A stretch of DNA of 64,000 bases from Bradyrhizobium manausense (lineage in GTDB: Bacteria > Pseudomonadota > Alphaproteobacteria > Rhizobiales > Xanthobacteraceae). Shown here piece after piece: positions 18,281 to 44,396 of this stretch. Position numbers and translations under genes: made by a program. The notes below the pieces were generated by a model. That model was not told where the DNA came from. It saw nothing but the letters and a program-made list of their open reading frames with translations, and made no database searches. Every line of letters begins with the position of its first letter. Within the stretch, counting starts at the first letter, position 1. The stretch covers positions 62,001-126,000 of the forward strand of contig NZ_JAFCLG010000011.1 of assembly GCF_018129685.1 (NCBI RefSeq), written 5' to 3'.

Positions 18281-21200
18281 TCATGCCGCCGCCCGATCGG
18301 AGATGCGCGAGAGCGGATAGCGCTCCAGCACCTTGCCGAGGATTGCCAGCCCGGACGCATCCGTCGGCACGAACATCCGCAGCTTCCAGGAGATGATTTC
18401 GTGGAACAGGCCGTAGACTCGCAACCGGTCTCGCATCGCATCGGTAAAGCCGGTAAGCTCGATGCGGTTGGCGCCCATGACGCGGACGCGACGAAGCTGT
18501 AACCCGTCGGTGAGATCGAGGACGGTCTTGCCGTCCAGCAATGCCATAAAGGCCTGCTCCGGCGTCAGCGTCGTCATCCCGGTTGACAGCGCGCCTACGA
18601 CCCATGCGGGTGAGACCTTGCGTCCGATGATCCGCTCACCTGTGTCGGTCTGGAGCCGATAGACGCGCGTCGATTCGTTGGGCAGCCGCTTCCAGATCGG
18701 CAACAACAATCCCGACACGATGTGGATCTCGCTGTCGGTAAACTCTGGCACCTCGGCGACCTCCGCCGCCCAGACCCGCGAGAACGTCGCGCGGTCGGTC
18801 TGCTGCCAGTGGGTCTGCGGCATCGTCGTCAGTGCGACCGTCGGATGCTCCATGGGGCGGATGAGCCGGACGCGGCGTTCGACCTCGCCGTCGTCCGTCA
18901 TCAGGCTACGCGCCGGCACCTGGACGGCGGCGCGACCAGACTGACTGTTCACCAGCAGCACGGCACGCGGGTCGGAGAGACGGCCCAAGGCCTCGTCCAG
19001 GGCGACGGGGCGGTTTCGGTCGCGTTGGGCGATGGTCAAGAGGCAGGTTCCGGCCGAAGTGCCGGGATGGGTGTAGATGGTCTGCCGTCCCGTCACGACG
19101 AAAGATTCCGCCGTCAGCGTCTCAAGCCCGACATCGTAGGTCCCGCTTGCGATCGCGCCCTCGATCCGTGCGGTGAGCAACTGCTCGAACGCTGTGAACA
19201 GGATATTCTGAAGGTTGATGGTCAGCGCCAGCAATCGGTTGAGGAACGTCGTGATCGGCGGCAACTCGTCTCTGATGCCGTTGGCGTCTGTGAGCTTCAG
19301 CCCGGTGGCATCCTCGAACGTCTGGAGCGAACAATCCTCCACCTTGCCCATGACGAGGAGGACATAGAGCTGCCGCAGCGCGTCGCGGGCATAGTGGCTC
19401 TCCAGATTGTCCTCGGACCTGAACAGTCCCTCGCCGCCGGTCTGGCGCTGGCCCCTTGTGATCGCGCCGAGGGTGTCGAGACGACGGGCGATGGTCGAGA
19501 GGAAACGCTTCTCGGCTTTCACATTGGTCGCGATCGGGCGGAACAGCGGCGGCTGCGCCTGGTTGGTGCGATTGGTGCGGCCAAGGCCCTGAATGGCGGC
19601 ATCGGCCTTCCATCCGGCCTCAAGCAGGTAGTGAACGCGGAGCCGGCGGTTCTTCGCCGAGAGCTCCGCATGGTAGCTGCGCCCGGTACCGCCGGCTTCC
19701 GAGAAGACGAGGATGCGCTTGTCGTCATCCATGAATGCCTGGGTTTCGGCGAGATTGGCAGAACCGGCACGGTTCTCGACCACGAGCCGATCGATACCAT
19801 CCGCTCCGCGCGTGCGAACGATCCGCCGGGACCGGCCGGTGACTTCGGCGACCTCCTCGGTGCCGAAGCGCTGGATGATCTGATCGAGCGCGCCGTGCAC
19901 GGGTGGCAGAGAGGCGAGCCTCTCGATCAGCCGGTCGCGGCGTGCGACCGCGTCTCGGCACTGCACCGGCTGGCCGTCACGATGGACCGGACGCGACGAC
20001 AGGTTGCCCTCGTTGTCGGTAAAGGGTTCATAGAGCTGGGTCGGGAACGAGTGCGCGAGATAGTCCAGGACGTATTCGCGCGGGGTGATGTCGACCTGGA
20101 CGTCGCCCCAGTCCTCCGTCGGAATGTCGGCGAGTCGCCGCTCCATCAGCGCTTCGCCGGTCGACACGATCTGGATCACGGCGGCATGGCCCGCCGCGAG
20201 ATCGCGCTCGACGGCTGATATCAGCGACGGCGTCTTCATCGCCGTGATGAGGTGGTTGAAGAAGCGCTGCTTGGCACTTTCAAAGGCGGACCGCGCGGCA
20301 GACTTTGCCTGCGCGTTCAACGTGCCGGTCGAACCGGTGATGTTCGCCGCCTGCATCGCCGCGTCGAGATTGTTGTGGATGATGCCGAACGCGCCGGCGT
20401 AGGCGTCGTAGATCCGGATCTGCTCTTCACTGAGGGTGTGTTCGACCAACTCGTATTCGACGCCTTCGTAGGAGAGCGAGCGCGCGGCATAGAGACCGAG
20501 CGCCTTGAGGTCGCGCGCCAGCACCTCCAGCGCGGCGACGCCGCCGGCTTCGATGGCCTCGACGAACTCGGCCCGGGTGGCGAAGGGAGAGTCCTCGCCG
20601 CCCCAGAGGCCGAGCCGCTGCGCATAGGCGAGGTTGTGAACCGTGGTGGCGCCGGTCGCCGAGACATAGACGACGCGCGCGTTCGGCAGGGCATGTTGCA
20701 GGCGAAGCCCGGCTCGGCCCTGCTGCGAAGCGGCCACGTCGCCACGGTCGCCCTTGCTGCCGCCAGCATTCTGCATTGCGTGAGACTCGTCGAAGACGAT
20801 GACGCCGTCGAAATCACGGCCCAACCACTCGACGATCTGCCTGACACGCGAAACCTTCTCGTCGCGCGCGTCGGAGCGCAGCGTGGCGTAGGTCGTGAAC
20901 AGGATGCCCTGCTCCAGACGAATGGGCGTGCCTTGCCGGAACCGCGACAGCGGGGTCACCAGCAGGCGCTCCTGGCCGAGCGCCGACCAGTCGCGCTGCG
21001 CGTCCTCGATCAGCTTGTCGGATTTCGAGACCCAGAGCGCGCGGCGCCGGCCCTTGAGCCAATTGTCGAGCAGGATGCCCGCGACCTGGCGGCCCTTGCC
21101 GGCGCCAGTGCCGTCGCCCAGAAACCAGCCCCGCCGAAACCGGACGGCGCTCTCGGCATCATCCGGCGCGGCCGAGACGACATCGAAGGTCTCGTCGACC

Positions 21201-22633
21201 GTCCACGCCCCCGCGAGAATGCCGCCGTGGGCTTCGCCGGCGTAAATGACGGATTCAAGCTGGGCGTCGGACAGCAGGCCGTCCGGCACCACAATCGCGG
21301 GGAGATGTGGCCGGTAGGACGGAGTGGGCGGCGCGACCGAGGCCATGGCTGCCGACTGCACCAGCCTGGTCGGATGCGCCTGGGCGCCGGGAATACGGAT
21401 CGATTGCAATCCATAGGGCTCGTAGAGCGCTTCGGTGATGCCGCCATGTTCGACCGGCTTCCAGGTCACGGATTCATAGGCGAGCTCGATCGCCTCGGGC
21501 GCCATCGCCGACACCGGGACGGCGGCCGGACGCATGGCGTAAGCGCGGACTGTTCTGGGAATGGCCGGCCGCGCGGCCGCTGGAATGGCGACGGCCGATC
21601 CGATCGGCAACCGCGGCGGCACCTGTTGTATCACCCAGCTGAGCAGTGTCGCGACATCCGGCGCGGTGCCCGGAGATGGCGGGAACGACTTGATGTCTCG
21701 CGCGGGCGCCTTGTCGATCACCGTCAGGCATGTCTCGACGGTGGTGCCGTGCTTGGCAAAGACCGCGCCGTCAATGGCGGCGGAGAACACCACGCGCCCA
21801 CGTTCCTGCAAGGCGATGAAGGCATCCCTCCATGCGGGATTGTCGGGCGCGCAGCTCGCGGCCGTGATCGCGACCAGACGGCCGCCTTCGGCGAGACGTG
21901 CCAGGGCCGAGGACATATGGCAGAGCGCCGCGCCGGCCATTCGGCGGTCGACGTTGGCGATGGCCGAGAATGGCGGATTCATCAGCACCACGCTCGGAAC
22001 GATAGCGGTGTCGAGATGATCGTCAATGTTCGCGGCGTCGAACGAGGTGACGGCGATAGCGGGGAAAAGGCGCGACAGAAGTTCCGCGCGGGCCTCGGCC
22101 AGTTCGTTGAGCACCAGCGATCCGCCAGCGAGCTCGGCCAGGATGGCGAGCAGCCCGGTGCCGGCGGACGGCTCCAGAACAACGTCATCGGGGCGGATCG
22201 CTGCGGCCACGCTCGCTACAAAGGCGAGAGGAATGGGCGTCGAGAACTGCTGAAACGTCTCGCTCTCTTCCGAGCGGCGGGTGTGGGTGGGAAGAAGACT
22301 GGCGATCCTGGCCAGCAGCGGCAGCATGGCGGCAGGCGATGCGGCGCGTGCGCGGATCGCCGGGCCGAACTTGCGCAGGAACAGCACGGTCGCGGCCTCC
22401 ACGGCGTCATAGCCGGTCTTCCAGTCCCAGGCGCCCGACGCGTCAGTACCGCCGAAGGCGGTCTCCATGGCGGCGCGCAAGAGGGCAGCGTCGATGCGGC
22501 GGCCCCGTTCGAGATGAGGAAGAAGAAGATGGGCGGCTCGGCCGGTCGCGGCGGAACGGTCCGCGATATCCAAAGCGACAACAGAAGATGGGGCGATCGC
22601 GGAGACGGCGGCGGAAGCAGAGAAGTTTGTCAT
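18281..22633 (-). CDS. fused adenine methyltransferase and strawberry-notch helicase, 1450 aa
   Basis: The first 330 residues hold a class I methyltransferase with the SAM loop EPSAGTG (154-160) and the catalytic NPPF (219-222), typical of N6-adenine methylation. The rest is an SF2 helicase of the strawberry-notch family: Walker A GDGTGAGKGRQ (about 507), Walker B FDESH (about 614), motif III VSATGAT (about 655) and motif VI LGRTNRTNQ (about 1013), followed by a large C-terminal domain. Such proteins are core to alphaproteobacterial islands; protection from restriction, replication and remodelling have been suggested but not shown. The ATG (MTNFSASAAV) at 22633 is preceded by a type A leader hairpin. 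It is the first gene of a cluster with the toprim gene. Confidence 0.92.
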   Translation of the reverse strand: MTNFSASAAVSAIAPSSVVALDIADRSAATGRAAHLLLPHLERGRRIDAALLRAAMETAFGGTDASGAWDWKTGYDAVEAATVLFLRKFGPAIRARAASPAAMLPLLARIASLLPTHTRRSEESETFQQFSTPIPLAFVASVAAAIRPDDVVLEPSAGTGLLAILAELAGGSLVLNELAEARAELLSRLFPAIAVTSFDAANIDDHLDTAIVPSVVLMNPPFSAIANVDRRMAGAALCHMSSALARLAEGGRLVAITAASCAPDNPAWRDAFIALQERGRVVFSAAIDGAVFAKHGTTVETCLTVIDKAPARDIKSFPPSPGTAPDVATLLSWVIQQVPPRLPIGSAVAIPAAARPAIPRTVRAYAMRPAAVPVSAMAPEAIELAYESVTWKPVEHGGITEALYEPYGLQSIRIPGAQAHPTRLVQSAAMASVAPPTPSYRPHLPAIVVPDGLLSDAQLESVIYAGEAHGGILAGAWTVDETFDVVSAAPDDAESAVRFRRGWFLGDGTGAGKGRQVAGILLDNWLKGRRRALWVSKSDKLIEDAQRDWSALGQERLLVTPLSRFRQGTPIRLEQGILFTTYATLRSDARDEKVSRVRQIVEWLGRDFDGVIVFDESHAMQNAGGSKGDRGDVAASQQGRAGLRLQHALPNARVVYVSATGATTVHNLAYAQRLGLWGGEDSPFATRAEFVEAIEAGGVAALEVLARDLKALGLYAARSLSYEGVEYELVEHTLSEEQIRIYDAYAGAFGIIHNNLDAAMQAANITGSTGTLNAQAKSAARSAFESAKQRFFNHLITAMKTPSLISAVERDLAAGHAAVIQIVSTGEALMERRLADIPTEDWGDVQVDITPREYVLDYLAHSFPTQLYEPFTDNEGNLSSRPVHRDGQPVQCRDAVARRDRLIERLASLPPVHGALDQIIQRFGTEEVAEVTGRSRRIVRTRGADGIDRLVVENRAGSANLAETQAFMDDDKRILVFSEAGGTGRSYHAELSAKNRRLRVHYLLEAGWKADAAIQGLGRTNRTNQAQPPLFRPIATNVKAEKRFLSTIARRLDTLGAITRGQRQTGGEGLFRSEDNLESHYARDALRQLYVLLVMGKVEDCSLQTFEDATGLKLTDANGIRDELPPITTFLNRLLALTINLQNILFTAFEQLLTARIEGAIASGTYDVGLETLTAESFVVTGRQTIYTHPGTSAGTCLLTIAQRDRNRPVALDEALGRLSDPRAVLLVNSQSGRAAVQVPARSLMTDDGEVERRVRLIRPMEHPTVALTTMPQTHWQQTDRATFSRVWAAEVAEVPEFTDSEIHIVSGLLLPIWKRLPNESTRVYRLQTDTGERIIGRKVSPAWVVGALSTGMTTLTPEQAFMALLDGKTVLDLTDGLQLRRVRVMGANRIELTGFTDAMRDRLRVYGLFHEIISWKLRMFVPTDASGLAILGKVLERYPLSRISDRAAA

Positions 22634-22658
22634 GGAGGCAGGCCTCGGGAGAGCGAAA

Positions 22659-22708
22659 ACGGGTGGAGCCCGCGGGCGCTCTCTCGACCTCGCCGGCTCA
22701 AACCCGTC
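22659..22708 (-). promoter_or_regulatory. type A leader hairpin before the methyltransferase-helicase gene
   Basis: On the minus strand GACGGGTTTGAG opens a region that includes GAGAGAG and GCGGGC and closes with CCCGT, ending about 25 bases before the start codon. It shares GACGGGTT, GAG, GAGAGAG and the closing CCCGT with leaders of the ParB and DUF932 genes. Confidence 0.55.
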
Positions 22709-22847
22709 CCGGCCGCGCTCGTCCTCTAAGAACGCGGGGCCCCGCCGCGCCAATCGAGGCACCGCCGAGCTACACACATGCTGATGGGTTGCGGATGATG
22801 AGACCGCGCCACCAAGCGACGCGTTCGTCGCGGCAGGCATTGGCGAG

Positions 22848-23090
22848 TCACGGCAGACAATCGCCATGGCAGGCGAGCGGCGCGCAGAAGCAGACGAGAT
22901 CGCAGCCGCGGAACTCGTCGAGCGTATGCAGCAGGGGATGCTGATCGCGGAGCCAACGCTCGTTCTTCTTGACGACCGCAACGCGGACGCCATCGTGGCC
23001 GATCCGGAACGGGTTGCCCCATTTGCTGCCGCGGCCGATGTTGAGGGCATCCGACTGCACGCCGGTCTGATGCTTGTTGAGAACCTGCAC
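22848..23090 (-). CDS. DUF4326 protein, 80 aa
   Basis: From the GTG at 23090 the protein reads MQVLNKHQTGVQSDALNIGR, then GSKWGNPFRIG and ends RGCDLVCFCAPLACHGDCLP. The SKWGNPF motif and the C-terminal CFC...CHGD motif are the DUF4326 signature. The cysteines and histidine may bind metal. GTG is chosen because AGGAGGG lies eight bases upstream. The family is common in phages and plasmids; its function is unknown. Confidence 0.85.
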   Translation of the reverse strand: MQVLNKHQTGVQSDALNIGRGSKWGNPFRIGHDGVRVAVVKKNERWLRDQHPLLHTLDEFRGCDLVCFCAPLACHGDCLP

Positions 23091-23236
23091 ATCACTGTCC
23101 CTCCTGACCCGTCTGTTGCGATGGACTGGCCGTGAGGGCACGGTTCAGGGATGGATGTCACGCATCGCCCTTGGGGATGTGGGGACGGCTTGCCCATTGA
23201 CGTTGCCGCGGCCAGACAGGTCCCTGCGCGGCAGGG

Positions 23237-23479
23237 TCAGGTTGGGGATGATCGGGCCCGCGGTTCGGATGGCGGCAGATAGGCGGTGTAGGGATTGCCA
23301 TCCGCGAGATGGCCAAAGGGCGTGAGAACAAGGTCGGTGCCGTCGCGGCCGACGCCGCAAATCACGTAACGGGGCTCAGCGGTCACCGCGTCGGTACATT
23401 CTATCAGCGCGAGGTTGCCGTCAGCCGCCGCACGCAGCAATGACTGGAAATTGGCGCTGATGTAGTCGGGAATGCTCAT
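23237..23479 (-). CDS. DUF6117-type protein, 80 aa
   Basis: The protein reads MSIPDYISANFQSLLRAAAD, then GNLALIECTDAVTAEPRYVI and PFGHLADGNPYTAYLPP. This matches the short DUF6117-type proteins seen next to ParB in rhizobial and sphingomonad islands. It is likely a soluble alpha/beta protein of unknown role. It sits 141 bases downstream of the ParB stop. Confidence 0.8.
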   Translation of the reverse strand: MSIPDYISANFQSLLRAAADGNLALIECTDAVTAEPRYVICGVGRDGTDLVLTPFGHLADGNPYTAYLPPSEPRARSSPT

Positions 23480-23620
23480 TGCACGGCCCTCCCAGGCGTT
23501 GAGGTTGATTGCGGATGGTCATGATCGTTCTCCGGAGATGAAAGAGCCCGGCGCGCTGGCCGGGCTCAGAGGAGAAATGGAAGTCTTCAGATGCGGCGGT
23601 GAGCCGCTCCCGCATGAGAG

Positions 23621-25732
23621 CTATTCGGCGGCAACGACCAGGAGCCGGTCGTCTTCGGGATAGCCCCGCCCCTCGTCATCCTCAGCGAGGAATTCCGGCA
23701 ACGCCTCGGCTTCCCCAACCGGGGCGTGCTCGCTGTCCGGATCGGCCAGCCGCAGCGGCTCGGGCAACCAGCCGGTGCCGTCGAGCAGACGCTCGGCTTC
23801 CCGCGCCATGTCCCCCTTCTTGAGGTGATCGATGAGTTGCACGGATGCCTCACCCTTGGCCTCCCGCACCGCTTGGAGAATCCGGGGTTTGGTCACGCGC
23901 CCGAGATAGTTCTCGGCGGTCGGCTTCCAACCTGCCGTCACCATGTCAAGCCCGATCGCGCGTGCCAGGACATCGGCCTGATCGAGCCTGCGCCGGACAC
24001 CGTGGGCGAAGACTCGGCCCTCGTTGTACCGGTTCGCCGGTTCATATAGCGCGTTGACAGCAGACGCGGCGCAATGCGCGAACAGTGCCGCCTGCGTGGT
24101 TCCGTCGAGTGCGGTGAGCGCGTCCCACAGATCGGCCTCATCCTTCGGCAGGCGCGCCTTCCACGCCGCAGAACGCGCGTCGATGGCGATGGCCGATGCG
24201 CTCTCCTTCAAGCCCGGAGCCTGAGCGGGGAACGTCGGCGTTCGGATCGCAATCTCCAGGCAGCCACTCGACGATGCGAAGCGGTAGAAGCTGGCCAGTA
24301 CGAAAGTGTGGAGCACCGCCTGGAACGCCATGGCAGGATGGTTTGCCAAGGCATCGCGCAACGCCAGCGTGCGATGGGCCGTCAGCTCGGTGATAAGCCG
24401 GTCCGGCAGCGGTTTTGCAATGTCGTCATCCTCATCCTCCACGGGTTCGGCCGGGGCGCCGCCGATACTGATGACCGCGCGCTTACTCGCGCCAGCCGGT
24501 TGGGTACGATCCTCATGGCCCTCCCCGTCGGATTCGATGGCCGAGACTTCGGACGCCTCGTCTTCCGGCCGGACATAGCCGCGATCGACCGAGAGCCTCC
24601 CTTCGGCGTCGATGCCGACGAAGGCGCCGGCGCGGGCGACCTCGGCGAGATCGTAGCTGAGCGAGCGGGATTCGAAGGCGGAGCGAGCCGCTTCGATCTC
24701 GCCGAGGCGCTGGTCGATTTCATCGGGCAGTTCGCCGGCGTCCTGGTAGTCGGTCTCGATCTTGGCATACTCGGCGTTGAGGGCGTCGAGGGTGGCCTGC
24801 TCGTCATCCGTGAGATCGACGGGTCGACCTTCGAGTTCACGCAGGTCATTGGTGTGGCCGTAGGGGAAGTCGACCGCCACGCCAATCCACTTCCAGCCCT
24901 CGGCGGCGATGGTCTCGGCTTCCGCCTTGAGCTTTTCGGTGACGAGACGGTCGAGCAGCGGCACATCCTTTAGCCAGCCCCCGTCGTCCTGCTCGAACAG
25001 GTCACGCATGATGACGCCACCAGCCTGCTCGTAGGCGTCGAGCCCGACGAACTGGGCGCGGCGGTCGGAGGCCCGAACCGTGTTCTCCGTCAGCATGCGG
25101 CGGATCTGATACGGTTCGTCGTAGCCTGACTTGCTGACGATGTCCCAGACCTGCTCCTGGCGTGCATGGTCGCCGGTGACGGAGAACGCCATGAGCTGCT
25201 CCAACGTCATGCCGTCCTCGGCATAGATGTCGTGCAGCTTTGGTGAGACGGATGCCAGGCGCAAGCGCTGCTTGACGATCGCCGGCGAAACGAAGTGCCG
25301 CGCTGCGATGTCTTCTTCGCTCATACCGCTCTCGCGGAGGGTCTGAAACGCGCGGAACTGATCGAGGGGGTGAAGTCCGATTCGCTCATCATTTTCTGCG
25401 AGAGAGTCGTCCTCGGCGAGGCCCTCGTCTCTCACCACGCAAGGCACGGCTTGCGTCTTCGCCATCCGCTTCTGTTTCACCAGGAGTTCGAGGGCGCGAT
25501 ACCGCCGGCCGCCGGCGGGGACCTCGAACATGCCGGTCTCCCGGCCATCGCCGTCGATAACGGCGCGGACACTGAGGCTTTGCAGCAAGGTGCGTTGCGC
25601 GATGCTTTCCGCCAATTGCTCGATCGAGACGCCCGCCTTGACGCGGCGGACGTTGGACTGGCTCAACACCAGCTTATTGAAGGGAATATCGCGGGACGGA
25701 CTGAGCTTGATCTTCTGAACGGCGCTTGCCAT
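23621..25732 (-). CDS. ParB/RepB-type protein with long C-terminal extension, 703 aa
   Basis: The N-terminal 200 residues are ParB-like: IPFNKLVLSQSNVRR, then EVPAGGRRYRALELL (the ParB box) and ENDERIGLHPLDQFRAF, followed by a helix-turn-helix (MSEEDIAARHFVSPAIVKQR). Canonical ParB proteins are about 300 residues; the extra 400 residues are acidic and helical, typical of island ParB homologues, and of unknown function. No ParA lies next to it. By family it may bind DNA in a sequence-specific, CTP-dependent way. The ATG at 25732 is preceded by GGAG, and a type A leader hairpin lies just upstream. Confidence 0.92.
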   Translation of the reverse strand: MASAVQKIKLSPSRDIPFNKLVLSQSNVRRVKAGVSIEQLAESIAQRTLLQSLSVRAVIDGDGRETGMFEVPAGGRRYRALELLVKQKRMAKTQAVPCVVRDEGLAEDDSLAENDERIGLHPLDQFRAFQTLRESGMSEEDIAARHFVSPAIVKQRLRLASVSPKLHDIYAEDGMTLEQLMAFSVTGDHARQEQVWDIVSKSGYDEPYQIRRMLTENTVRASDRRAQFVGLDAYEQAGGVIMRDLFEQDDGGWLKDVPLLDRLVTEKLKAEAETIAAEGWKWIGVAVDFPYGHTNDLRELEGRPVDLTDDEQATLDALNAEYAKIETDYQDAGELPDEIDQRLGEIEAARSAFESRSLSYDLAEVARAGAFVGIDAEGRLSVDRGYVRPEDEASEVSAIESDGEGHEDRTQPAGASKRAVISIGGAPAEPVEDEDDDIAKPLPDRLITELTAHRTLALRDALANHPAMAFQAVLHTFVLASFYRFASSSGCLEIAIRTPTFPAQAPGLKESASAIAIDARSAAWKARLPKDEADLWDALTALDGTTQAALFAHCAASAVNALYEPANRYNEGRVFAHGVRRRLDQADVLARAIGLDMVTAGWKPTAENYLGRVTKPRILQAVREAKGEASVQLIDHLKKGDMAREAERLLDGTGWLPEPLRLADPDSEHAPVGEAEALPEFLAEDDEGRGYPEDDRLLVVAAE

Positions 25733-25746
25733 GTCGGATTCTCCAC

Positions 25747-25787
25747 GACGGGCGGCCGGGAGACTCTCTCTCGACCTCCAACCCGTC
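25747..25787 (-). promoter_or_regulatory. type A leader hairpin before ParB
   Basis: On the minus strand the leader opens GACGGGTTGGAGG, continues GAGAGAGAGTCTC and closes GCCCGTC, so the ends pair GACGGG with CCCGTC. It ends 14 bases before the start codon. It is nearly the same as the leader before the DUF932 remnant. Confidence 0.7.
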
Positions 25788-25932
25788 AGTGAAATCCGCA
25801 CGCCCCTCTCACTCTCCGGCGCGCCCCGGGAATGAAAATCGAGACGGGGAATACATGCGATCACCCGGCTCGCACAGGCGAACCGATGTTGGTGGGGACA
25901 AGCGGATTTGTGCCCGGCGCGGTTGGTTCGGA

Positions 25933-26919
25933 TCAGGTGCCACTGGCACAACGCGCCAGCGAGATCTGGAGCAGGTGCGGGCCTACATCCGTCTCGTCGG
26001 GGATGGCGGATGACGCCTGATGCGCTTCGGTGGATACGGGCTGCCTGGCGTGCATCCAGTCGGCGGCCTGCTGCGCCTTGCTGGCGGCAGTGAAGATAGC
26101 ACGAGGATCGTCCTTCAGCACTTGGACCCACGAGGCAATATATGCTGCATGATCGGGCCGCGGATGGTGAGCTATACCCAGATCGGCAAGGACGAGACCG
26201 CTGAGAATCTCCACGCAGCATTCCTCGGCGGCATAGGCAGCCGAACCGAACCGGCCCGAGAGATCGCGGTCAAGCCGGTGCTTTGCCCCTGAGGCATGTC
26301 CGTTCTCATGCAGCCAAACTCCATAGAATGACGCAGCATCACGGAAGGAAGCAAAATCCGGCATGAACACCGCGTCCGATGAAGGCAGATAGTAGGCTTC
26401 CGAACCACCGAACACGGTCCTGATCCCGAGATTGGTGATGAAAGCCTCGGCATGCGCCAGACGCTCGCTCTCCGGCAGGACGTCAATGGGCTGCCGTTCG
26501 TATCCATCCACCTGCGCGACATTGAATACCGAGAATGCCCGGGCAAACATCCGCTGGCGACCATCATCACCACCGTCATCGCCGTCAGCCGACTCCCGGG
26601 AAGCGATCTGCTTCCACAGCACGACGGTGGTTGAGCGTTCGCCTTTGCGGACCTGCGCGCCGGCAGCCTGCCATTGCCGATAAGTGCCCCATAGGCCATC
26701 AGCGTAACCGCCAGCCATGGCTGCGTGCCAAAGCGCCAACGTGTTTATGCCCCGGTAGCGCTTGCCGGAAGCAACATTGGTCGGACGGGCAACGCTCGTC
26801 CCGTTGTGGAACCACGGCGCACGCCACTCGCCTGCACCTTGTTCGATTGCCGCGATGATCTCGGCGGTGATGCGCGTGTAAACATCGGCTCGCGCTCCGG
26901 GCTGCTTCTGGGAAGACAT
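25933..26919 (-). CDS. ardC: ArdC-like antirestriction protein, 328 aa
   Basis: The N-terminal domain matches ArdC/DUF1738 (VYTRITAEIIAAIEQGAGEW, RPTNVASGKRYRGINTLALW), which binds single-stranded DNA. The C-terminal half is a metallopeptidase-like domain with HENGH (an HExxH motif) in GVWLHENGHASGAKHRLDR. Members help incoming DNA escape restriction in a new host. The ATG at 26919 (MSSQKQPGARAD) is chosen by homology, and GGAGCCATCACG precedes it. A C-terminal tail of about 25 residues after the family core looks unrelated. Confidence 0.9.
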   Translation of the reverse strand: MSSQKQPGARADVYTRITAEIIAAIEQGAGEWRAPWFHNGTSVARPTNVASGKRYRGINTLALWHAAMAGGYADGLWGTYRQWQAAGAQVRKGERSTTVVLWKQIASRESADGDDGGDDGRQRMFARAFSVFNVAQVDGYERQPIDVLPESERLAHAEAFITNLGIRTVFGGSEAYYLPSSDAVFMPDFASFRDAASFYGVWLHENGHASGAKHRLDRDLSGRFGSAAYAAEECCVEILSGLVLADLGIAHHPRPDHAAYIASWVQVLKDDPRAIFTAASKAQQAADWMHARQPVSTEAHQASSAIPDETDVGPHLLQISLARCASGT

Positions 26920-27004
26920 CGTGATGGCTCCTTGGGAGCGACGCGAGCGCAAGGGATCGCCACCGCGTGCGGGCGGCATCAGGCTCAACGTCGATGGAAA
27001 GGAA

Positions 27005-27519
27005 TCAGTGAACGGCTGGTGAGACAGCTTGACTGTTCAGATAACAGCCGTAGTCCGGGCTTGTGACCGCGCGCAGCTCGACGCGCCCATCCTCGACCTC
27101 AAGCGTCTTGATCTGTTCCGGCGATTCGAAGTCAGTCCATATTGTAGATTGATCGCCGCGAGCGGTGCCGGAAGTTGGCGCAAATAGGCGGATGCCGCGC
27201 CGACCATCGTTGCGAGGTGACCGAAACTCCAATGGGTCGGCGCGACTGGTGTCTCGCCCGGCAGCATCAACGTCAGCCGCTCGCCATCGTCGCGGCTCGC
27301 CTCCACCCGGATCGCCGCGCTCTCGATGGTCCGGGTCCGGCTGCGTTCGGCCCGGCCGAGCACCGCGGCTTGCAACTCCGACAGCGAAAGGTAGCGCTCG
27401 TCGGCCGACCGGGAAAACCACTCCGAGGACACGCGGCCTATGCGCTCGCCGCGGCTCGTATCCACTTTGTAACCGGCGCGTACACCGCGATCGGCGTCCA
27501 GAACATTCAGTTGGGTCAT
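27005..27519 (-). pseudogene. truncated, frameshifted DUF932 gene
   Basis: The first 125 residues match the DUF932 N-terminus found on rhizobial islands (MTQLNVLDADRGVRAGYKVD, then ESAAIRVEASRDDGERLTLM). After INLQYGLTSNR the reading shifts; the true continuation EQIKTLEVEDGRVELRAVTS is in the neighbouring frame, consistent with loss of one base near 27118-27123. Even that frame stops after another 20 codons, so about 60% of the normal gene is missing. DUF932 proteins are thought to act in plasmid or phage DNA biology. This copy should be inactive. Confidence 0.85.
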
Positions 27520-27532
27520 GGGACATCTCCAT

Positions 27533-27572
27533 GACGGGCGCCGCGAGACTCTCTCGCCTGCCTCAACCCGTC
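27533..27572 (-). promoter_or_regulatory. type A leader hairpin before the DUF932 remnant
   Basis: On the minus strand the leader opens GACGGGTTGAGGC, continues GAGAGAGTCTCGCGGCG and closes CCCGTC, so GACGGG can pair with CCCGTC and GAGA with TCTC inside. The match to the ParB leader is close although the two genes are unrelated in sequence. Confidence 0.7.
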
Positions 27573-27700
27573 ACGGAAATTCCTGCCAAACTCTGACTCT
27601 ACGATCGGTCGGACGCATCCAAAGGACCTGCCCAACGCGGGATAAGAAGCTGCGATAGCAGGGCCCGACCTGCGGCTGATGTACTCGCCGCACGGTACCT

Positions 27701-27875
27701 CCTATGATCCCTATGCCCCCTATGACTTGATGTTTCGGTGACTGCAGCTACAAGCATCGATCGTATGCTGAGGGAGCGTAGAATTGATGCAGTTACCAAG
27801 CCGCGTACAAACTGCTGAGTGCCCATCGCTGCAATCCCCCCGATGGCACCCATGGTCCCTATGCCCCCTATGACC
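27701..27875 (-). repeat. two clusters of 9-bp-period CATAGGG-type repeats
   Basis: Plus-strand TATG occurs at 27703, 27712 and 27721, and TATG/CATG/GATG at 27842, 27851, 27860 and 27869: a strict 9-bp period in two clusters. In one minus frame they encode Gly/Ile/Met triplets (VIGGIGTMGAIGG). The rest of 27573-27955 shows no gene. The clusters lie just past the stop of the P-loop ATPase gene. Confidence 0.6.
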
Positions 27876-27955
27876 GCGTTGTCGTGGCGTTTGCTGATTC
27901 ATTCGCAGCGTTTGCGCGCCGAGGTCCGTGATGTCGGAGGTCCTTTGCTGGCCTC

Positions 27956-29563
27956 CTATTCGGTCCTCTTCAGCGCGTAGCTCGACGGGCTCCACTTGGA
28001 GGGGGACTTGATGCGGAGCATCACGAAGCCGCCAGCACGCGTCCCCTCGAGTCGTGCCACAAAGCTCGCGAGACTCTGCCGGCTGCCGCGCTCCTGCGGG
28101 TCAGCCAACCGGCATAAGCGAATGTCGAGCTCCTTCACCTTCATAGGGCGCTCCCCATACAGCTCGTGCCAGGTGGTAAAGAACTCAACCACCTGCGCGC
28201 GGAGCGGATCATCGCGCTTGATCTCGGAGATGCGGCGAACCGGGTCGGGGCAGCCGAGGGCAAGGAGCGGATCACGACACCAAGTGGCCCACTGCTCAAA
28301 GCTGCCGAGCGCCAGGCCAGGCTTGCTCTGATTGCGGCGTCCCCACCGCCAGATGGTGAGCGCCGCAGCGAGGAGCTCATTTCGCTTCTCCTTGATGGTC
28401 AAACGAAAATCCTCATCGAACCGGCGCTGCTCGGGGTCCTCGCAGCCGGCATCGAGTTCGACAATCAGGAAGCGCCGCGCCAGGTCCTCTGACACCGTCG
28501 TGGCATTCCCGGTCATCGCCAGAAAGGCGGAGCTCGTGATCGAAACCACCTTCGTATTCTCGCGGAACCGACGGATCGCACACGGGTTCTCAGTGGCGAT
28601 CTGCGCCAGCAAATTCGAACGCACGACCTCCGCGTTGACGTTGTCGAGGAAGATGATCGGGTCGGCCGCGACGAGGGCGGCCGTCAATCGCTTCTCGAGC
28701 TCGGCGCGTTCGCCGGAGCTGGTGAAGGCCTTCGGAGAGAAGTTGAAGGCGATTTGTGACGCCGCACGAACGAGCAGACCTTTGCCGGTGCCAGCGCCCG
28801 AATACTGCGGCGAACGTATGATGAAACCGGGCGCGAGCGGCAAGCTCGGACGACACACCGCGGTCAAAACCGCGAGGACGTAGGTGGCTTCGTCGATGCC
28901 CGGAGGGTGTGAGGGATCGACGATGGACTGGCCGCTGGGGCTGGCGATCGTCTGTGCGTCCGCAAAGGGAAAGCTGGCAAAGGGCTTGCGAAGGGTACGC
29001 TAGGCCGCCTCGGCCTGCTTGCGTGACGGGCGCTCGGGAATGCTCGGCAGCTCGATGCCCGTGCACCAGAAACGCGTATCCTTGTCGTAGCCACGCGCGA
29101 CGCGGATCGAGCCATCGTTCGCAAGAATCGGAGCGCGGCAGATCCCGTCGAGGTGGGGAACGCCCCAGGCGTCGTGCCGGTTGAGATACAACCGAGCGAC
29201 CCGATCGGGGAGGGTCACGGCTTCGACGACGACTTCACCACGGACGATCTTCTTCACAACCGGGCGGCACACCTGGTGCGCATGATTGACGACGTCGTGG
29301 ACGTTGAGATCGAGAGTCGAGAACCCATCAGCGGTCTCGATCAGCTTGACGAGTCCGGCGCCACGCTGGAAGAGCTTTGACGAGCTCGCGAGGCGCTCGG
29401 CCAATCTGCCAGCCGCGGCCGGCAGATTGGACTGATCGATGAGCAACGAACGGAGCTCCTCAGCGCCCCGCGGTGCAGCGGACGTCGATGCGCCCGCCTT
29501 GTGTTGGTCATTGGATTTCGAAGAGCGGTTCCGCTTGGCGCGCTGCGACTTGTTGCTGGACAT
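27956..29563 (-). pseudogene. P-loop ATPase (primase/helicase-like) gene interrupted by one in-frame TAG
   Basis: A single frame runs from 29563 to 27956 with only one interruption, a TAG at 29002-29000. The N-terminal part (187 aa) holds a conserved region (LPDRVARLYLNRHDAWGVPH, then NDGSIRVARGYDKDTRFWCT). The C-terminal part (about 347 codons) has Walker A GAGTGKG and a Walker B-like PIIFLDN. Homologues in rhizobial islands appear as one protein and probably act in element replication. Either the gene is dead, or the C-terminal piece is made separately (TTG at 28867, 303 aa), or the TAG is read through. No other frameshift is seen, so the mutation is probably recent. Confidence 0.75.
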
Positions 29564-37604: not shown

Positions 37605-38205
37605 TCGCCGCGCCCTCTTCCGCAAGGATGTGACGAAGGTAAAGAGAGACGCCACGAGCGAATCGCGGCAGCTCATGAATCGCCTCAAGCAGATGACGCC
37701 GGCGCAATTCGTGCGCCTGCCGGCTAAGACACTGGCACGTTTGACCGCCGCCCAGTATCGCGAGGTTGTCGGCACGATCGCGCCGGAGATCAGGTTGCCG
37801 GCGCCTTCGCCGCCGGCCAAGCCTGAGCGCGAGACGCTCGGATGGCGTGAGCGGTGGCGGCTGTTGCCGTCCTCTGCGCAGATGACGGCGGTCACGTCGG
37901 TGTTGACCACCGCCATTGTCATGATGGCAATTGCGAGTCCGCAGGTCTGGAGGTGGACCCTGACCCACATCGAAATCGTGCGGCCGGGCGAGCGGGGGAA
38001 CTGGCCGCGCTGCACCCGGCTGAGCCCGTACACCGATGGCTGCCTGTATTTCCCGACCCATGACATGGACTGGAACGCTGTTGCCGCGCAACTGCGCATG
38101 CCGCGGCAACAGCTTTACGACGACAACAAGCATCTTCCCCCGCAATTCATTCCTGCGCGTGCGCCAATCGCGGTTTGGCGCCATCGTGGCCGTCTGGTGG
38201 AGTAG
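37597..38205 (+). CDS. single-pass membrane protein with a LysM-like tail, 202 aa
   Basis: From the ATG overlapping the ParA-like stop, the protein has a basic cytoplasmic N-terminus (MADRRALFRKDVTKVKRDAT), one transmembrane helix at about residues 100-120 (MTAVTSVLTTAIVMMAIA) and a periplasmic domain of about 75 residues. The latter (CTRLSPYTDGCLYFPT, then DWNAVAAQLRMPRQQLYDDN) looks LysM-like, with two cysteines that may pair. It is a likely envelope-spanning partner of the coupling protein six bases downstream. Confidence 0.65.
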   Translation: MADRRALFRKDVTKVKRDATSESRQLMNRLKQMTPAQFVRLPAKTLARLTAAQYREVVGTIAPEIRLPAPSPPAKPERETLGWRERWRLLPSSAQMTAVTSVLTTAIVMMAIASPQVWRWTLTHIEIVRPGERGNWPRCTRLSPYTDGCLYFPTHDMDWNAVAAQLRMPRQQLYDDNKHLPPQFIPARAPIAVWRHRGRLVE

Positions 38206-38210
38206 TCAGC

Positions 38211-39911
38211 ATGGATCGTCTCGCAAACTACGAATATCGTCCGGCGACGCCAGCGGCATTCGCCCTCGTTGGCATGGCCTTGCTATCGTGCCTGATCGGG
38301 CTCGCGCTGTCCTTCGCGCTCATTCCGCCGACGGCGTGGCGGCAGGATACGGCGGTCGCAGTTAGCGTTACCGAGATGGTCTCAAACATCAACAGGCACG
38401 GCCCGCTCGCCGCCCTTTCTGCTGACGATCTGCTCCGCGAAACACTGCCGCGGCTAATCGGTATAACCCTCGCTGCGCTCATGTCGGGAATTATCGCGTT
38501 TCGGGTGCGCCGTCGCGCCACGCCCATTGTGGATGGTCGCGAGCACTACGAAGGGCTCAAACTCCTGAAAGGGCCAGCCGCGATCGCGAGCGCCAATGAG
38601 CTGTTGGGTAAAGGGCCCAAAGGAGGTGACCGTACGATACAATGGCTGCCGGGCGTGTTCATCCCGCGCGTCATGGAAGTTCAAAACCTTTTGATCCTTG
38701 GCGCTATCGCTTCCGGCAAGACGCGCATCATTCTCTACCTGCTGGAAGAAATGATCGGTCGATTGCTGCGAAATCCCTCCGCCGATTACGGCCTGTTCGT
38801 TCACGACACGACCGGTGAGATTTTGGATGGGTTTCCGATGGAGGACGATCAGTTCGCCTTCATCAATCCGGATCGTCCGGGAACGTTTGCCTGGGCGATG
38901 GGGCGGGATCTTCGTGACGACGGCGATTGTGAGAGCGCGGCCGAGCAGATCATCGGCCAGACCAGCGAGGCGTTCTGGGGCAAAGGCGCCGCGACGCTCT
39001 TTGCGGGTTGCATGATCGTGTGCAAGGCCAAGTGCGGCGACACTTGGGGACTGCCGCAGCTCTATATGGCCTGCCTCCGCGAGCCCGCGCGAATGAAGAC
39101 GGAATTCGAGCAGTTCTATCGCCCAGCAGCGGGTCTTATCGAATTCGATGGGTCGGGCGAGCTCAGCAAGACCACCGTCTCGCTGTTGCTAACGTTCCGC
39201 GGCAGCGTGCTGCGAGTGCTCCGACCACTGGCGAGAGCATGGGTAGGCATTCCGCGAGAGCGGCAATTCTCGTTCGGCGAATGGGTTAGCGGATCGAACC
39301 CGAATCAGCCCAAGGTCGTCATCGTTCAGCGGTCCGGCCGTCATCCGGAAACCAGCGCGGCCTGGATCGGGATGGCCGTCGATTTCATCACGGCGGCGGT
39401 CGGCGACAACAGATTGTCGGTAAGCCAAACGCGCATCCGGAACTTCGTGCTTGACGAGGCCCCTGCGCTAGGCCGGCTGCGGCGATGGCCCGATCTCTTG
39501 GATGTCGCAAGGAACAAGGGAGCATCTACAATCGCCGCTATTCAGGATATCGCACAGTTCAAGCGAATCTATGAGGATGCGGCTCCGAGCATCTTCCAGC
39601 GCTTCAGGACCAAGATCGTCTGCGCACAGACCCAAGGCCCCGAAACGACGGAGCTTGCCGAAGAGACGATTGGCAAGCGCTCCATCCTCGAGGCGGACGT
39701 GACGGTGACCGTCGAGCGTGGGCCCGCAGGTCGAACTGAGCAAAGCGCGATGGCGAAACGCGTGCGAGAGGTGCCAATCGTCCGAGCGGAATACCTTGCG
39801 TACCGACTTGGCGTTGCCCATCGGAAGGTCAAAGCTCTCGTTCTTGGGCTCGGCGACGTGCTCGAAGTGGAATGGCCGATGCGAGTCTGGCGAAGGCAGA
39901 GGCGCACTTAG
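38211..39911 (+). CDS. TraD/VirD4-like type IV coupling protein, 566 aa
   Basis: Two N-terminal transmembrane helices (about residues 14-38 and 80-100) are followed by a cytoplasmic ATPase: Walker A LILGAIASGKTRIILYLLEE and Walker B IRNFVLDEAPALGRL, then the conserved glutamine region (STIAAIQDIAQFKRIYEDA). Coupling proteins pump relaxase-bound DNA into a type IV secretion channel. The ATG at 38211 (MDRLANYEYRPATP) is chosen because GGTGGAG precedes it. It ends the plus-strand cluster; no mating-pair formation genes follow in this window. Confidence 0.9.
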   Translation: MDRLANYEYRPATPAAFALVGMALLSCLIGLALSFALIPPTAWRQDTAVAVSVTEMVSNINRHGPLAALSADDLLRETLPRLIGITLAALMSGIIAFRVRRRATPIVDGREHYEGLKLLKGPAAIASANELLGKGPKGGDRTIQWLPGVFIPRVMEVQNLLILGAIASGKTRIILYLLEEMIGRLLRNPSADYGLFVHDTTGEILDGFPMEDDQFAFINPDRPGTFAWAMGRDLRDDGDCESAAEQIIGQTSEAFWGKGAATLFAGCMIVCKAKCGDTWGLPQLYMACLREPARMKTEFEQFYRPAAGLIEFDGSGELSKTTVSLLLTFRGSVLRVLRPLARAWVGIPRERQFSFGEWVSGSNPNQPKVVIVQRSGRHPETSAAWIGMAVDFITAAVGDNRLSVSQTRIRNFVLDEAPALGRLRRWPDLLDVARNKGASTIAAIQDIAQFKRIYEDAAPSIFQRFRTKIVCAQTQGPETTELAEETIGKRSILEADVTVTVERGPAGRTEQSAMAKRVREVPIVRAEYLAYRLGVAHRKVKALVLGLGDVLEVEWPMRVWRRQRRT

Positions 39912-40517
39912 CGCAAGTGTCGCATTACTAGTGGCGAGGCGCATAATCTTCGTTATGGTATGCTTTGGTCCAAATCGCGACGAGACGCGCATCGCCTCAA
40001 GCGCCGCAGGCATGCGCGGCGACACATCCCGGCTGCACCACAGCCCGTCTGACTCTCGAAGATTACTCCTTCGGCGGCACGTTCGGCAATTAAATTCAAG
40101 TCGATAACGCCTCCAGCAATAATGCCGTCTCGCCAGACCTTCAGCCGGACAGGGCTTCGCTGCTCCTTTGAATCTACGCTCTCGTCACCAGCCGATAAAT
40201 AGGTCGCGCGATCGTCAGTCCAAAATCCTACGGTATTCCCGGAGGCAATTGCCTCCCTGGCCGCGCCGATCGGAGGCTTGTAACCAGGTCGAAATGCCCG
40301 CCCGCCGTCGGGCCGAAATTAAGGTCGTCTCATGCGCTGCGTGTCGCTAGCGCAATTCCTTATCTACCTGTGCTATGTAACGCCCCCGGGGCGTAAAATG
40401 GTTGTCCGGCAACCTCGAGCGCAACCAGACGCGTCGCGTCGTGCCGTGAGTAAGATCAAGTTTGGATCGATAGCGCGACAGGCCGCGCGTGAGCACCTAT
40501 AAAGGAGGGCCGCTTCT
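39912..40517. other. 606 bp without a supported gene
   Basis: No coding frame is convincing. The last part, just before 40518, has a strong AAAGGAGGG ribosome binding site for the kinase gene. A promoter is expected here but I could not identify boxes with confidence. Confidence 0.4.
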
Positions 40518-42269
40518 GTGACCGCGCTTGAGCTTGCAGGTCTGATCGCAACGGGAGCGCTTTTGCTGGTGCTCGCGGCTGCAGTCGGGGCATTGGCCTT
40601 TCGCGCTGTCGAGCGCACCCGGTATGAAGCCGCCCTTCAAAAAAGCGAGCAGCGGTTTCGCCAAGTGGTCGAGCACTCACCGAACGCCAAGGTGCTGGTC
40701 GGTACCGATGGGCGCATTCATCTGGTGAATGCGCAAACCGAAGCTCTATTCGGCTGGTCGCGGCAGGAATTGCTCGGTGAGGCGGTCGAGATGCTCGTGC
40801 CTGAACGTTTCCGTTCGGGGCATCCCCACCATCGCTCCGCTTTCCTTCAACAACCAGTATCGCGCCCGATGGGAGCGGGCCGCGATCTCTACGGCCTCAG
40901 GAAGGACGGGAGTGAATTTCCGATTGAAATTGGTTTGAATCCAATCGAAACGGACGAGGGTTTATTTATCTTGTCGGCCATCATCGACATCTCCGATCGC
41001 AAGCAGATCGAAGAACGGCTTGAGAGGCTGGTTGAGGCACGAACTGCTGAACTGCAGGATCAGATCGAACAGCGGAGAAGGGCAGAAGACACGCTCCGTC
41101 AGTCCCAGAAGATGGACGCTATTGGGAAGCTGACCGGTGGCGTTGCGCATGACTTCAACAATATGCTGGCGATCGTCATTGGTAGCTTGGACATTGCCCT
41201 TCGGCGGCTGGCTACCGAACCTGAAAAAGCCACGGCCTGCATCGAGAATGCGCAGGAGGGCGCACGCCGCGCGGCAATCTTGACTGCGCGGCTGCTGGCG
41301 TTCTCCCGTCAGCAACCTCTCGAGCCCGAATCTGTAGATGCCAACAAACTGGTCGGCGGAATGTCCGAAATGCTTCGGCGAACGATCGGCGAGGATTTAC
41401 GTGTCGAAGCCGTCTTAGCGGGTGGGCTTTGGCGGACCTATGCCGACGCCAGCCAGCTTGAGAACGCCCTCCTGAACTTGTGCGTCAATGCCCGCGACGC
41501 CATGCCCGACGGCGGCCGCCTGACGATTGAAACTTCTAACACGCACCTTGACGAAGCTTATGCCGGTCAGCACGCGGAGGTTACCGCAGGCCAATACGTG
41601 CTCATCGCTGTCACCGACACGGGGACAGGCATGCCGCCAGAGGTCATCGAGCGCGCGTTTGACCCGTTCTACACAACGAAGGGCGCTGGCCGCGGAACGG
41701 GCCTGGGCTTGAGCCAAGTCTATGGCTTCGTGAAACAATCCGGCGGGCACGTAAAGATTTACTCCGAGCCTGGCCAAGGCACGACCGTCAAGATCTATTT
41801 ACCACGGTTCATGGGGCAGGCCTCGTCCAGTCCGGTACGGGGCTCAACTGAACCTCGCCCTGCTGGCATGGTTAACGAGATCATCCTGGTCGTGGAGGAT
41901 GAGGCCGGCGTCAGACATATGAGCGTAGATGCCCTACGGGAGCTCGGCTACACCGTTATCCAGGCAGAGAACGCTGCGCAGGCGCTTCAGCTGTTGGACT
42001 TGCAGCCATCGGTGAGCCTGCTGTTCACCGACATTGTCATGCCCGACATGAATGGCCGCCGGCTCGCCGACGAAGCCCTCGAAAGGCGACCGGATCTCAA
42101 GATCCTCTTCACGACCGGGTACACGCGCAACGCTGTGATCCACAACGGTACCCTTGATCCCGGTGTCGCGTTTCTCCCCAAGCCCTTCTCGCTCGATGCG
42201 CTCGCCCGAAAGGTGCGCCAAGTTCTTGATGGGAACGGGGCCAACCGGCCCCGCGGCCATCGTAGTTAG
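40518..42269 (+). CDS. PAS hybrid histidine kinase with receiver domain, 583 aa
   Basis: One N-terminal transmembrane helix (about residues 5-27), a PAS domain (about 40-165, [20 protein letters not shown]), a histidine kinase core with H-box [12 protein letters not shown]-box [11 protein letters not shown]1 DTGTGM, F-box FDPFYTTK and G2 GTGLGL, and a receiver domain (VVEDEAG, phosphoacceptor in [11 protein letters not shown], lysine in PKPF). All key residues are present. No separate response regulator lies nearby, so output would be through a distant partner. The GTG start follows AAAGGAGGG. It is likely cargo of the island. Confidence 0.92.
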
Positions 42270-42479
42270 GCCTGAAGAACCGGAATCTTCAGGAGGCGAC
42301 CCCACAGCAGCCCCACCACCGCCCTGTCTCAGCTAGAAAACGGGTCCACGCGGACAACTTAAATTCCGACCGCAGCTTCACTTCGAACTGCAATTTGGGT
42401 CGCACGGGCTCCGCTCCACCTCTTCTGCGCGTGGCCGAATGCCTACAATCACCGCATTGAGGCGAGTGAAGGAGCCTTG

Positions 42480-42830
42480 TGGGCTTTATCGAAGGCGATA
42501 GCCGACGATCAAATCAGCCGGTTGCCGGCGCGCGTGGACGATTACGTCGCGTCCGTATGGTCGACGCATTCGTCGCCAGCCTGGACATGGCCGACGTTGG
42601 CTTCAACCGAGCGATCGCTTTCGACGAAGTGGCAGCCCGGATTCGAGCCTGGTGATGCTCAGGCTCTACATGTGGGCTTATCTCAATCAGGTCCGATCGT
42701 CGCGGCATTTTGAGCGCGCCTGCTCGAGACCTTAAAGCTATAAGGCTGATCCGCCGGCTGGCTCCGGACTACCGGACCATGGCCGCCTGCCGCGACCTTG
42801 TAAGCGTTGGCCGACGAGAAGAAGCCCCGA
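42480..42830 (+). pseudogene. decayed N-terminal piece of an IS1182-like transposase
   Basis: Pieces in different frames read DAFVASLDMADVGFNRAIAF, then MLRLYMWAYLNQVRSSRHFE-like text, then RDLKAIRLIRRLAPDYRTMA. Together they match the N-terminal region of IS1182/DUF772 transposases, but at least two frameshifts break it, so it is a remnant. The rest of 42270-42892 holds no gene. Confidence 0.75.
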
Positions 42831-42892
42831 GCAACCGGCGGAGATCTACAACTGACGCCCGCAAGCTCCGGAATGACGTCAGTATCGAGCAA

Positions 42893-42922
42893 TGAAAAAC
42901 ACCCCGAGCCGCAGCCCGGGGG
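42893..42922 (-). terminator. rho-independent terminator after the Omp25-like gene
   Basis: A GC-rich stem (CCCCGAGC against GCCCGGGG, one mismatch, loop CGCA) lies 29 bases past the porin stop. On the minus strand it is followed by GTTTTT. Position and shape are classical. Confidence 0.85.
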
Positions 42923-42950
42923 CTTTCAACGTCGCGTTCAGAAGCAGCGA

Positions 42951-43688: not shown

Positions 43689-44141
43689 GTGAGTGATCCC
43701 CTAAAAAACCATGGGCTTCGATCGTTTGCCCGCATCACAACGCATGAGGACGCCAAACAGCTGTGGCGGCATGGTCACAGTTCAACCGAAAACGCTTTGG
43801 AGCGGGCCCGGCTTTGGCTTCTACTTCGGACTTGGAGCTTCCAAGCAAGCCCTCAGGCTCAGACGCGCGCAGACCGCTCTGCAGCTTCGGGAAACGAGTA
43901 TTCGGGTCGCCGAGTTTTCCTAAGGCGGCGCACCTCAAGGATCAGCGAGCTACAAGTCCACGACCGGCGACCGACAGGAAAGCGCCGCCTCCTGATGCCC
44001 GTGGGTTGGAGGAAATCCTTCACTCCCGGTTGGTTGTGACCGATACTGTGAGTATCAACTGCGCCTCAACGGGGTGCAAAGGCACACACTCCCCCGCCGA
44101 ACTGGCGCTCGGTTGAGTCCGCTTCAAACCGCTGAGCAGAG
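43689..44141. other. 453 bp without a supported gene
   Basis: Several overlapping frames occur on both strands but none shows a domain, signal peptide or good start site. The left edge must contain the porin promoter. Confidence 0.35.
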
Positions 44142-44396
44142 TTAGTGACGTCGCATATTGCTGGTGAGCGGGTCCGATGTCTCATCCAACACTTTCATGA
44201 GATCTCCTGGCTTCAGCCCAATGCTCTTTATCGAAGCCTCGTCTATCTCGCCGTCTACCACCGCGGCATCGCTGTTGGCGACCTTCAATGCAAACTGCGC
44301 GGCTTGGGCCGGATCGTCAATTGCAACCGCATACATCTCATGACCGAGTTCGTCGTTTTCTCTCACGACGGCGACCGTTACCATCCAACCCGCCAT
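44142..44396 (-). CDS. small hypothetical protein, 84 aa
   Basis: The chain reads MAGWMVTVAVVRENDELGHE, then MYAVAIDDPAQAAQFALKVA and DEASIKSIGLKPGDLMKVLD. It is acidic, alpha/beta in pattern, and typical of small conserved Bradyrhizobium proteins. No family is recognised. Confidence 0.5.
   Translation of the reverse strand: MAGWMVTVAVVRENDELGHEMYAVAIDDPAQAAQFALKVANSDAAVVDGEIDEASIKSIGLKPGDLMKVLDETSDPLTSNMRRH

Follow-up and report, generated by a model that had tools for sequence, protein, structure and literature searches.

Our analysis of a 64,000-nucleotide stretch of the Bradyrhizobium manausense genome (positions 62,001 to 126,000 of contig NZ_JAFCLG010000011.1, assembly GCF_018129685.1; this whole stretch is referred to as the window) revealed a conserved leader element upstream of three unrelated genes on the minus strand. 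These genes encode a strawberry-notch-type helicase of 1450 amino acids (18281–22633), a ParB-like protein of 703 amino acids (23621–25732) with a ParB/RepB/Spo0J-family relative on many conjugative plasmids, and a DUF932 remnant (27037–27519), a frame of 160 amino acids in a family with relatives of about 400. The remnant covers residues ~5–171 of a 402-residue relative, contains a frame change, and has lost its C-terminal half, and its leader is intact. A pattern search located GACGGGTT followed by GAGAGAG at 22679–22708, 25764–25787, and 27549–27572, with a mean of 0.00 matches in 100 shuffles of the window, which rules out chance occurrence. The closing letters are CCCGTC in the ParB and DUF932 copies and CCCGT in the helicase copy, and the element ends 25, 14, and 13 nucleotides before the start codons of the helicase (22633), ParB-like (25732), and DUF932 (27519) genes, respectively. 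An original prediction, made from the letters of this stretch, had described such a shared leader sequence with a GAGAGAG middle and a closing CCCGT(C), and in this respect it holds. In the organism's own genome the plain pattern has seven matches and a reversed control pattern has none.

The element begins further 5' than first described: the hairpin lies where the original prediction had placed it, and a box that it had missed, AGAGNNAGAG, marks the true start. The box reads AGAGTGAGAG in the ParB-like leader (25806–25815), AGAGTCAGAG in the DUF932 leader (27591–27600), and AGAGGACGAG in the helicase leader (22718–22727). In leaders of the ParB and DUF932 kind (type A) it holds two AGAG motifs approximately 27 nucleotides 5' of the hairpin and is followed by a spacer of ~18 nucleotides, the hairpin with a third AGAG in its apical loop, the Shine-Dalgarno sequence, and the start codon. 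In the ParB-like leader this type A hairpin occupies 25747–25787, with the Shine-Dalgarno GGAG (25741–25744) at the base of the outer stem in the predicted fold; in the DUF932 leader the hairpin lies at 27533–27572 and the GGAG at 27527–27530. Both copies belong to the 31 seeds, picked by the plain pattern, from which a covariance model for leaders of the ParB/DUF932 type (R1) was built; its full matches here span 25730–25795 (63.5 bits) and 27516–27580 (66.7 bits). Each folds into one long hairpin, with z scores against shuffles of −1.96 for the ParB copy and −4.98 for the DUF932 copy.

The unpaired letters are conserved well beyond the window. For the leader set, 163 sense matches of 201 were used, antisense and weak ones being left out; for the ParB-locus set, 135 of 155 were used, with 11 antisense matches, 8 from near-identical loci, and 1 weak match left out. 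Among 289 distinct type A copies, the box, as GAGNNAGAG or AAGNNAGAG, lies 18–21 nucleotides upstream of the R1 model start in 272 (background, 0.9% per 41 nucleotides), and most of the 17 leaders missing it look like near-matches. The apical loop reads AGAGG in 192 of 288 folded leaders and consists of GAG closed by an A-U pair (AGAGU) in another 52. GAGAGAG is not a single unit, its first letters belonging to a covarying stem and AGAG(G/U) forming the apical loop. Upstream of the box, the aligned ParB leaders show no clear conservation. Visual inspection of many of them had suggested that the box itself sits in a hairpin, but this proved not to be general and was dropped.

Do the two sides of the hairpin change together? 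We aligned, by sequence alone, 62 non-redundant ParB leaders (60 distinct rows), which remained of 76 after near-identical ones had been removed and 9 of which hold R1 seed letters. The two-stem hairpin pairs 96.9% of cells, compared with 38.3–54.7% when partners are slid by one to three columns, a comparison biased in its favor by a structure drawn up after the sequences had been viewed. Eight pairs are altered on both sides (shuffle mean, 2.3), a number reached by none of 500 shuffles, and individual rows replace GACGGG/CCCGTC with GGCGGG/CCCGCC, GACGGA/TCCGTC, or AATGGG/CCCGTT. The same stems and the same trend recur in the R1 seed alignment and in the ArdC and DUF932/185-amino-acid groups; in the R1 seed, 5 pairs altered on both sides were reached by 46 of 500 shuffles, and 20 such cells were not reached. 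The GACGGG/CCCGTC pairing proposed for the ParB and DUF932 leaders is borne out by these changes, and the test for compensation across homologues that the original prediction had suggested turned out positive. Conserved structure with compensatory changes directly before start codons, as seen here, is one feature expected of a cis-regulatory RNA leader, which would also be transcribed and alter expression.

A scan with Rfam 15 (4227 families, gathering cut-off) yielded only a tRNA in the window and no match in eight island loci, and a search of window positions 22000–28500 at E-values up to 5 gave one chance match, elsewhere than in the leaders. A known Rfam family is thereby ruled out, and the scan that had been suggested returned no leader match; very probably, we are dealing with a real structured RNA that is new to Rfam. 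The original prediction had considered an RNA thermometer or a riboswitch. A Shine-Dalgarno sequence within a helix and conserved unpaired letters would suit such a device, but the predicted energies of the two window hairpins (−28.6 to −34.9 kcal/mol) are high for a thermometer, which would not need conserved loop letters, and the conserved letters offer little from which a metabolite riboswitch could build a ligand pocket; nor did the leaders match any Rfam family. Having found nothing for either, we consider both very unlikely.

The distribution of mismatches indicates which nucleic acid strand is functional. On the sense strand, wobble cells of the G.T type outnumber those of the A.C type by 172 to 21 in the ParB leaders and by 121 to 7 and 100 to 7 in the ArdC and DUF932/185-amino-acid groups, although cells of related sequences are not independent; counted by pairs in the ParB leaders, G.T types occur in 15 of 19 and A.C types in 3. 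A DNA operator should show roughly equal numbers of both, and folding of the template strand should tip the excess the other way, so the observed bias identifies the transcript as most likely the acting form, with sense-strand single-stranded DNA less likely. Together with the compensatory changes, it supports the earlier proposal that non-homologous genes of the core module share a control element. It speaks against another earlier suggestion, an operator for a common repressor binding duplex DNA. Such an operator might have been suggested by the inverted repeats that stand in comparable positions ahead of several genes. It is left with little probability by the strong G.T excess, by conserved letters in the loop and an internal loop that is asymmetric, and by a location next to the ribosome site instead of a promoter.

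The element could also act on the strand that enters a recipient during transfer, folding into a single-stranded promoter or primer site of the Frpo/ssi type. The genes concerned are of a kind found in plasmid leading regions, which use structured promoters, and 60 of the 289 leaders have, ahead of the box, a further conserved block with several inverted repeats. This block, detected by GCAACGCC-like letters within 70 nucleotides, accompanies 40 ArdC, 15 DUF932, and 5 other leaders but none of the 134 ParB and 13 185-amino-acid family leaders. A promoter of this type, however, requires a fold of the template strand, and the wobble cells favor the sense strand; the aligned upstream letters, inspected by eye without a promoter scan, show no common −35/−10 sequence; and the hairpin abuts the Shine-Dalgarno site. 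We therefore judge a single-stranded DNA element improbable. The upstream block itself (GGGGAAAGCCTTCCCC ... CCCCGCAACGCCCC; e.g., locus L284, ~4030–4130, and also L208, L209, L273, and L275) stands before the leader of the first gene, carries GGGGAAAGCCTTCCCC-type repeats in most printed examples, and has an abrupt left edge after unrelated sequence. It may hold the promoter of the whole module, or be a single-stranded DNA element or the edge of the module.

The position of the hairpin points to translation. The GGAG at the base of the outer stem faces T-rich columns 2–5 of the alignment (T in 42, 36, 53, and 44 of 60 rows), and the predicted accessibility of the Shine-Dalgarno sequence averages 0.16 in 224 leaders with a recognizable motif, compared with 0.31 in 216 control open reading frames (ORFs) from the same loci (chosen for length, an ATG start, and a GGAG, and thus not all necessarily genes; P = 5e-13). 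In ParB leaders the predicted accessibility is strongly lowered, with a median of 0.01. The box starts less than 60 nucleotides from the stop codon of the preceding ORF in 29 of 115 ParB leaders, which thus sit inside operons and are probably transcribed.

Read-through is blocked by hairpins before transposase genes, and the hairpin here could likewise do no more than stop transcripts entering from outside, the proper transcript starting inside the hairpin or only in the recipient. Such an insulator would be compatible with a Shine-Dalgarno site at the stem base and with the lack of a visible common promoter sequence 5' of the box in ParB leaders. It also has a precedent in EGeRS1-B, described as blocking read-through before ardC of pLS20 and as lacking a usual promoter (PMC8708921). 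It would leave unexplained, however, the conserved AGAG box and apical loop as well as a related second fold with the same motifs, and operon-internal leaders would block their own operon. We regard it as rather unlikely.

This second fold belongs to the helicase leader. The idea of one hairpin common to all three leaders does not survive: the predicted fold of the helicase leader hardly differs from shuffles (z −0.56), a consensus fold of seven helicase leaders was uninformative, and its architecture is distinct. Judging by its letters, it is a sister of type A and not a copy, with the same box, GACGGG, and GAGAGAG arranged in a different, longer fold (type B). The core (22659–22708) comprises GACGGG, a GAGCC stem, and GAGAGAG; an outer stem involves GGGACGGG; and CGCUCUC (CGCTCTC at 22649–22655) adjoins the Shine-Dalgarno GAGG (22643–22646), where it may pair with the box or the GAGAGAG loop. 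For the GAGCC stem, a leader's own partner beats all 1000 swaps (324 pairs versus a mean of 309.7), and in an Agrobacterium plasmid the outer-stem letters are changed with pairing apparently kept, as judged by eye. CGCUCUC could pair with the box in 41 of 46 leaders and with the loop, by at least 5 base pairs, in 43 of 46; the ensemble, computed with an algorithm unable to represent pseudoknots, favors the box (0.76 versus 0.03). A pseudoknot between GAGAGCG and CGCTCTC is possible, and alternative pairing of CGCUCUC with box or loop could constitute a switch. A sequence-only model of this leader (R2; 46 seeds, 24 rows of which come from 23 of the ParB loci) matches before 72 of 74 helicase genes found by tblastn, a count not independent of the seed since 23 loci supplied seeds. 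R2 also matches before a gene of 145 amino acids in two loci and in 28 of 289 class genomes, often weakly.

How closely is the type A leader tied to its genes? Directly downstream of 282 of the 289 distinct copies lies an ORF of at least 100 amino acids, ruling out conservation merely as a dispersed repeat. ParB-like genes in named genomes were found by a protein pattern and tblastn, and the best 80 of at least 574 relatives were kept; 77 of these loci had enough upstream sequence to be judged and 3 did not. Letters of an R1 seed are present in 11 of the 80. An R1 match lies directly before the start codon in 76 of the 77. Where a genome of the class sample has a ParB match scoring more than 700 bits, it also has an R1 match (15 of 15), whereas 3 of 17 with weaker relatives do; in 4 further genomes R1 matches occur although no such ParB is present. 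The leader, as far as sequence comparison tells, tracks the orthologous ParB-like gene and not ParB at large. The plain pattern occurs at least once in 28 of 60 relatives, a few cases looking like chance matches by their letters, and R1 matches were found in 22 of 289 class, 87 of 347 order, and 31 of 349 phylum genomes. Only two matches in the phylum sample fall outside the Alphaproteobacteria, both weak (E-values, 0.0017 and 0.0078). Two conjugative Agrobacterium plasmids have diverged copies (39.8 and 22.6 bits) in front of their ParB gene. A gammaproteobacterial record, Dyella sp. AtDHG13 (L335), carries both leader types, which suggests that the element has been transferred beyond the class. 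Type A leaders also occur on three contigs from a viral collection (L020 at 8602, L076 at 12740, and L083), which may be misfiled conjugative elements or phage-plasmids. In B. manausense itself, ParB-like copies in two further islands (contigs C45, 383560–385383, and C2, 14596–16365) are broken by stop codons; the window copy is intact.

By N-terminal patterns, the 289 copies precede 134 ParB-like genes, 89 ArdC genes, 25 DUF932 genes, 13 genes of a 185-amino-acid family, and 28 other or misfiled genes, this assignment having placed some ParB, ArdC, or DUF932 genes among the others and one in the 185-amino-acid family. Tested members of that family (L245, 3051–3605; L284, 10355–10909; and relatives) have no Pfam or NCBIfam match. 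At least 5000 plasmid records carry a ParB/RepB/Spo0J-family protein related to the ParB-like protein; among those listed, 3700 are typed conjugative, and identity is mostly below 60%. Genes of this kind presumably sit in the leading region of F-like plasmids. The leading region has been described as the home of anti-defense genes with Frpo promoters (PMC11541004). Annotated neighbors in an Agrobacterium plasmid (L369) and a Bradyrhizobium element (L370) include methyltransferase-helicase, toprim, DUF2493, DUF736, DUF2285/DUF6499, relaxase, and TraG genes. From this gene content, the genes served (ArdC, DUF932, the plasmid-type ParB, the helicase-methyltransferase, and the 185-amino-acid family) most likely form a regulon for establishment after transfer.

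The window island itself looks conjugative by its sequence, with a TraG/TrwB-type coupling protein (38175–39911), a TrwC-type relaxase (47192–49852), and a large serine recombinase (50180–51880) overlapping a tRNA-Arg gene, perhaps the attachment site (38175–51891 region). In the Agrobacterium plasmid, other module genes (starts at 22228, 23661, 24934, and 27415) have GCCCGGC...GCCGGGC hairpin leaders before the Shine-Dalgarno sequence.

In function, the nearest parallel is EGeRS1 of pLS20-family plasmids, a set of repeated sequences described as structured, standing ahead of ardC and four further operons, lacking a usual promoter, and blocking read-through by an unknown mechanism (PMC8708921). 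Both systems place repeated structured sequences, ending at the ribosome site, before ardC and other establishment genes, and the authors of that description leave open whether EGeRS1 acts as RNA or single-stranded DNA. EGeRS1 measures 400–600 base pairs and occurs in Bacillus plasmids, whereas the leader here has ~90 nucleotides and occurs in Alphaproteobacteria, the two being likened here by their features; unlike EGeRS1 as described, our leader displays two folds, AGAG motifs, covariation, and a strand preference. We take the genes served by Frpo/ssi elements to include relatives of the ParB-like gene. The Frpo/ssi elements of F and ColIb-P9 are likewise repeated and structured and stand before leading-region genes, but they are described as template-strand promoters with −35/−10 sequences (PMC11541004). 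The template-strand structure of that class is not found here: on the sense strand, G.T cells are far more numerous than those of the A.C type. The hairpin, moreover, reaches down to the Shine-Dalgarno sequence.

Two families of protein-read leaders offer further comparisons. The trp attenuation protein (TRAP) binds sites made of many triplets in Gram-positive bacteria. GAG triplets spaced by 2–3 nucleotides, as in GAGNNAGAG, resemble such sites, although our leader has two triplets plus a loop. CsrA reads GGA. The target leaders of CsrA/RsmA resemble ours in their purine-rich loop motifs near the ribosome site and in one protein reading many mRNAs, but the conserved loop letters here are AGAG, with AGAGG or AGAGU in 244 of 288 leaders, and not GGA. 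Plasmids do carry such regulators, RsmQ being described as one (PMC9928087).

We propose the following model, to which we assign a probability of roughly 0.55: the element is a structured leader that controls translation of establishment genes and is read at its AGAG motifs by a putative trans-acting factor. In transcripts presumed to run through the whole leader, the two-stem hairpin of type A (ArdC, ParB-like, DUF932, and 185-amino-acid genes) would pair the Shine-Dalgarno sequence at its base and keep translation low by default. The AGAG sites, two in the box and one in the apical loop, would be read by a single factor that sets translation of the whole regulon. That factor would be an RNA-binding protein of the element or the host; a small RNA or the ribosome itself would be less likely. 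The type B helicase leader would present the same motifs in its other fold, CGCUCUC beside the Shine-Dalgarno sequence pairing with box or loop. A site for an RNA-binding protein, one of the options in the original prediction, fits best of those it listed, as a putative site. Between relaxase and traG of the Bradyrhizobium element L370 lies a gene for a cold-shock protein (38761–38967), an RNA-binding protein that is suitably placed and a candidate trans factor only.

Several observations weigh against this model. No regulator or AGAG-reading protein was identified, no survey of genes that always accompany the leaders having been made. Predicted Shine-Dalgarno sites in DUF932 (mean accessibility, 0.39; n = 14) and 185-amino-acid (0.38; n = 9) leaders are no less accessible than controls, so occlusion would not be general, and where the outer stem meets the site its pairing is often of the weak U.G kind (44 of 60 rows). 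The ArdC-type gene of the window (25933–26919, minus strand, start at 26919) has an ordinary leader in place of the element. One ParB-like gene (L339) lacks an R1 leader, two helicase genes (L288 and L295) lack an R2 leader, and 14 of 289 class genomes, which have distant ParB relatives only, lack the leader.

What would such control achieve? We tentatively speculate, while holding it to be less probable than its opposite, that an AGAG-reading factor shuts the leaders in a settled host and that its absence in a recipient opens them all at once. This would be zygotic induction acting on translation, and two different folds would have evolved around one AGAG code. In the open-access literature, we found no report of this leader element and none on the timing of such establishment genes in this large bacterial group. 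For this group, which includes soil and plant-associated bacteria among others, the leaders delimit a probable establishment regulon by sequence; they mark DUF932 and the 185- and 145-amino-acid families as likely establishment genes, and the R1 and R2 models make the regulon searchable.

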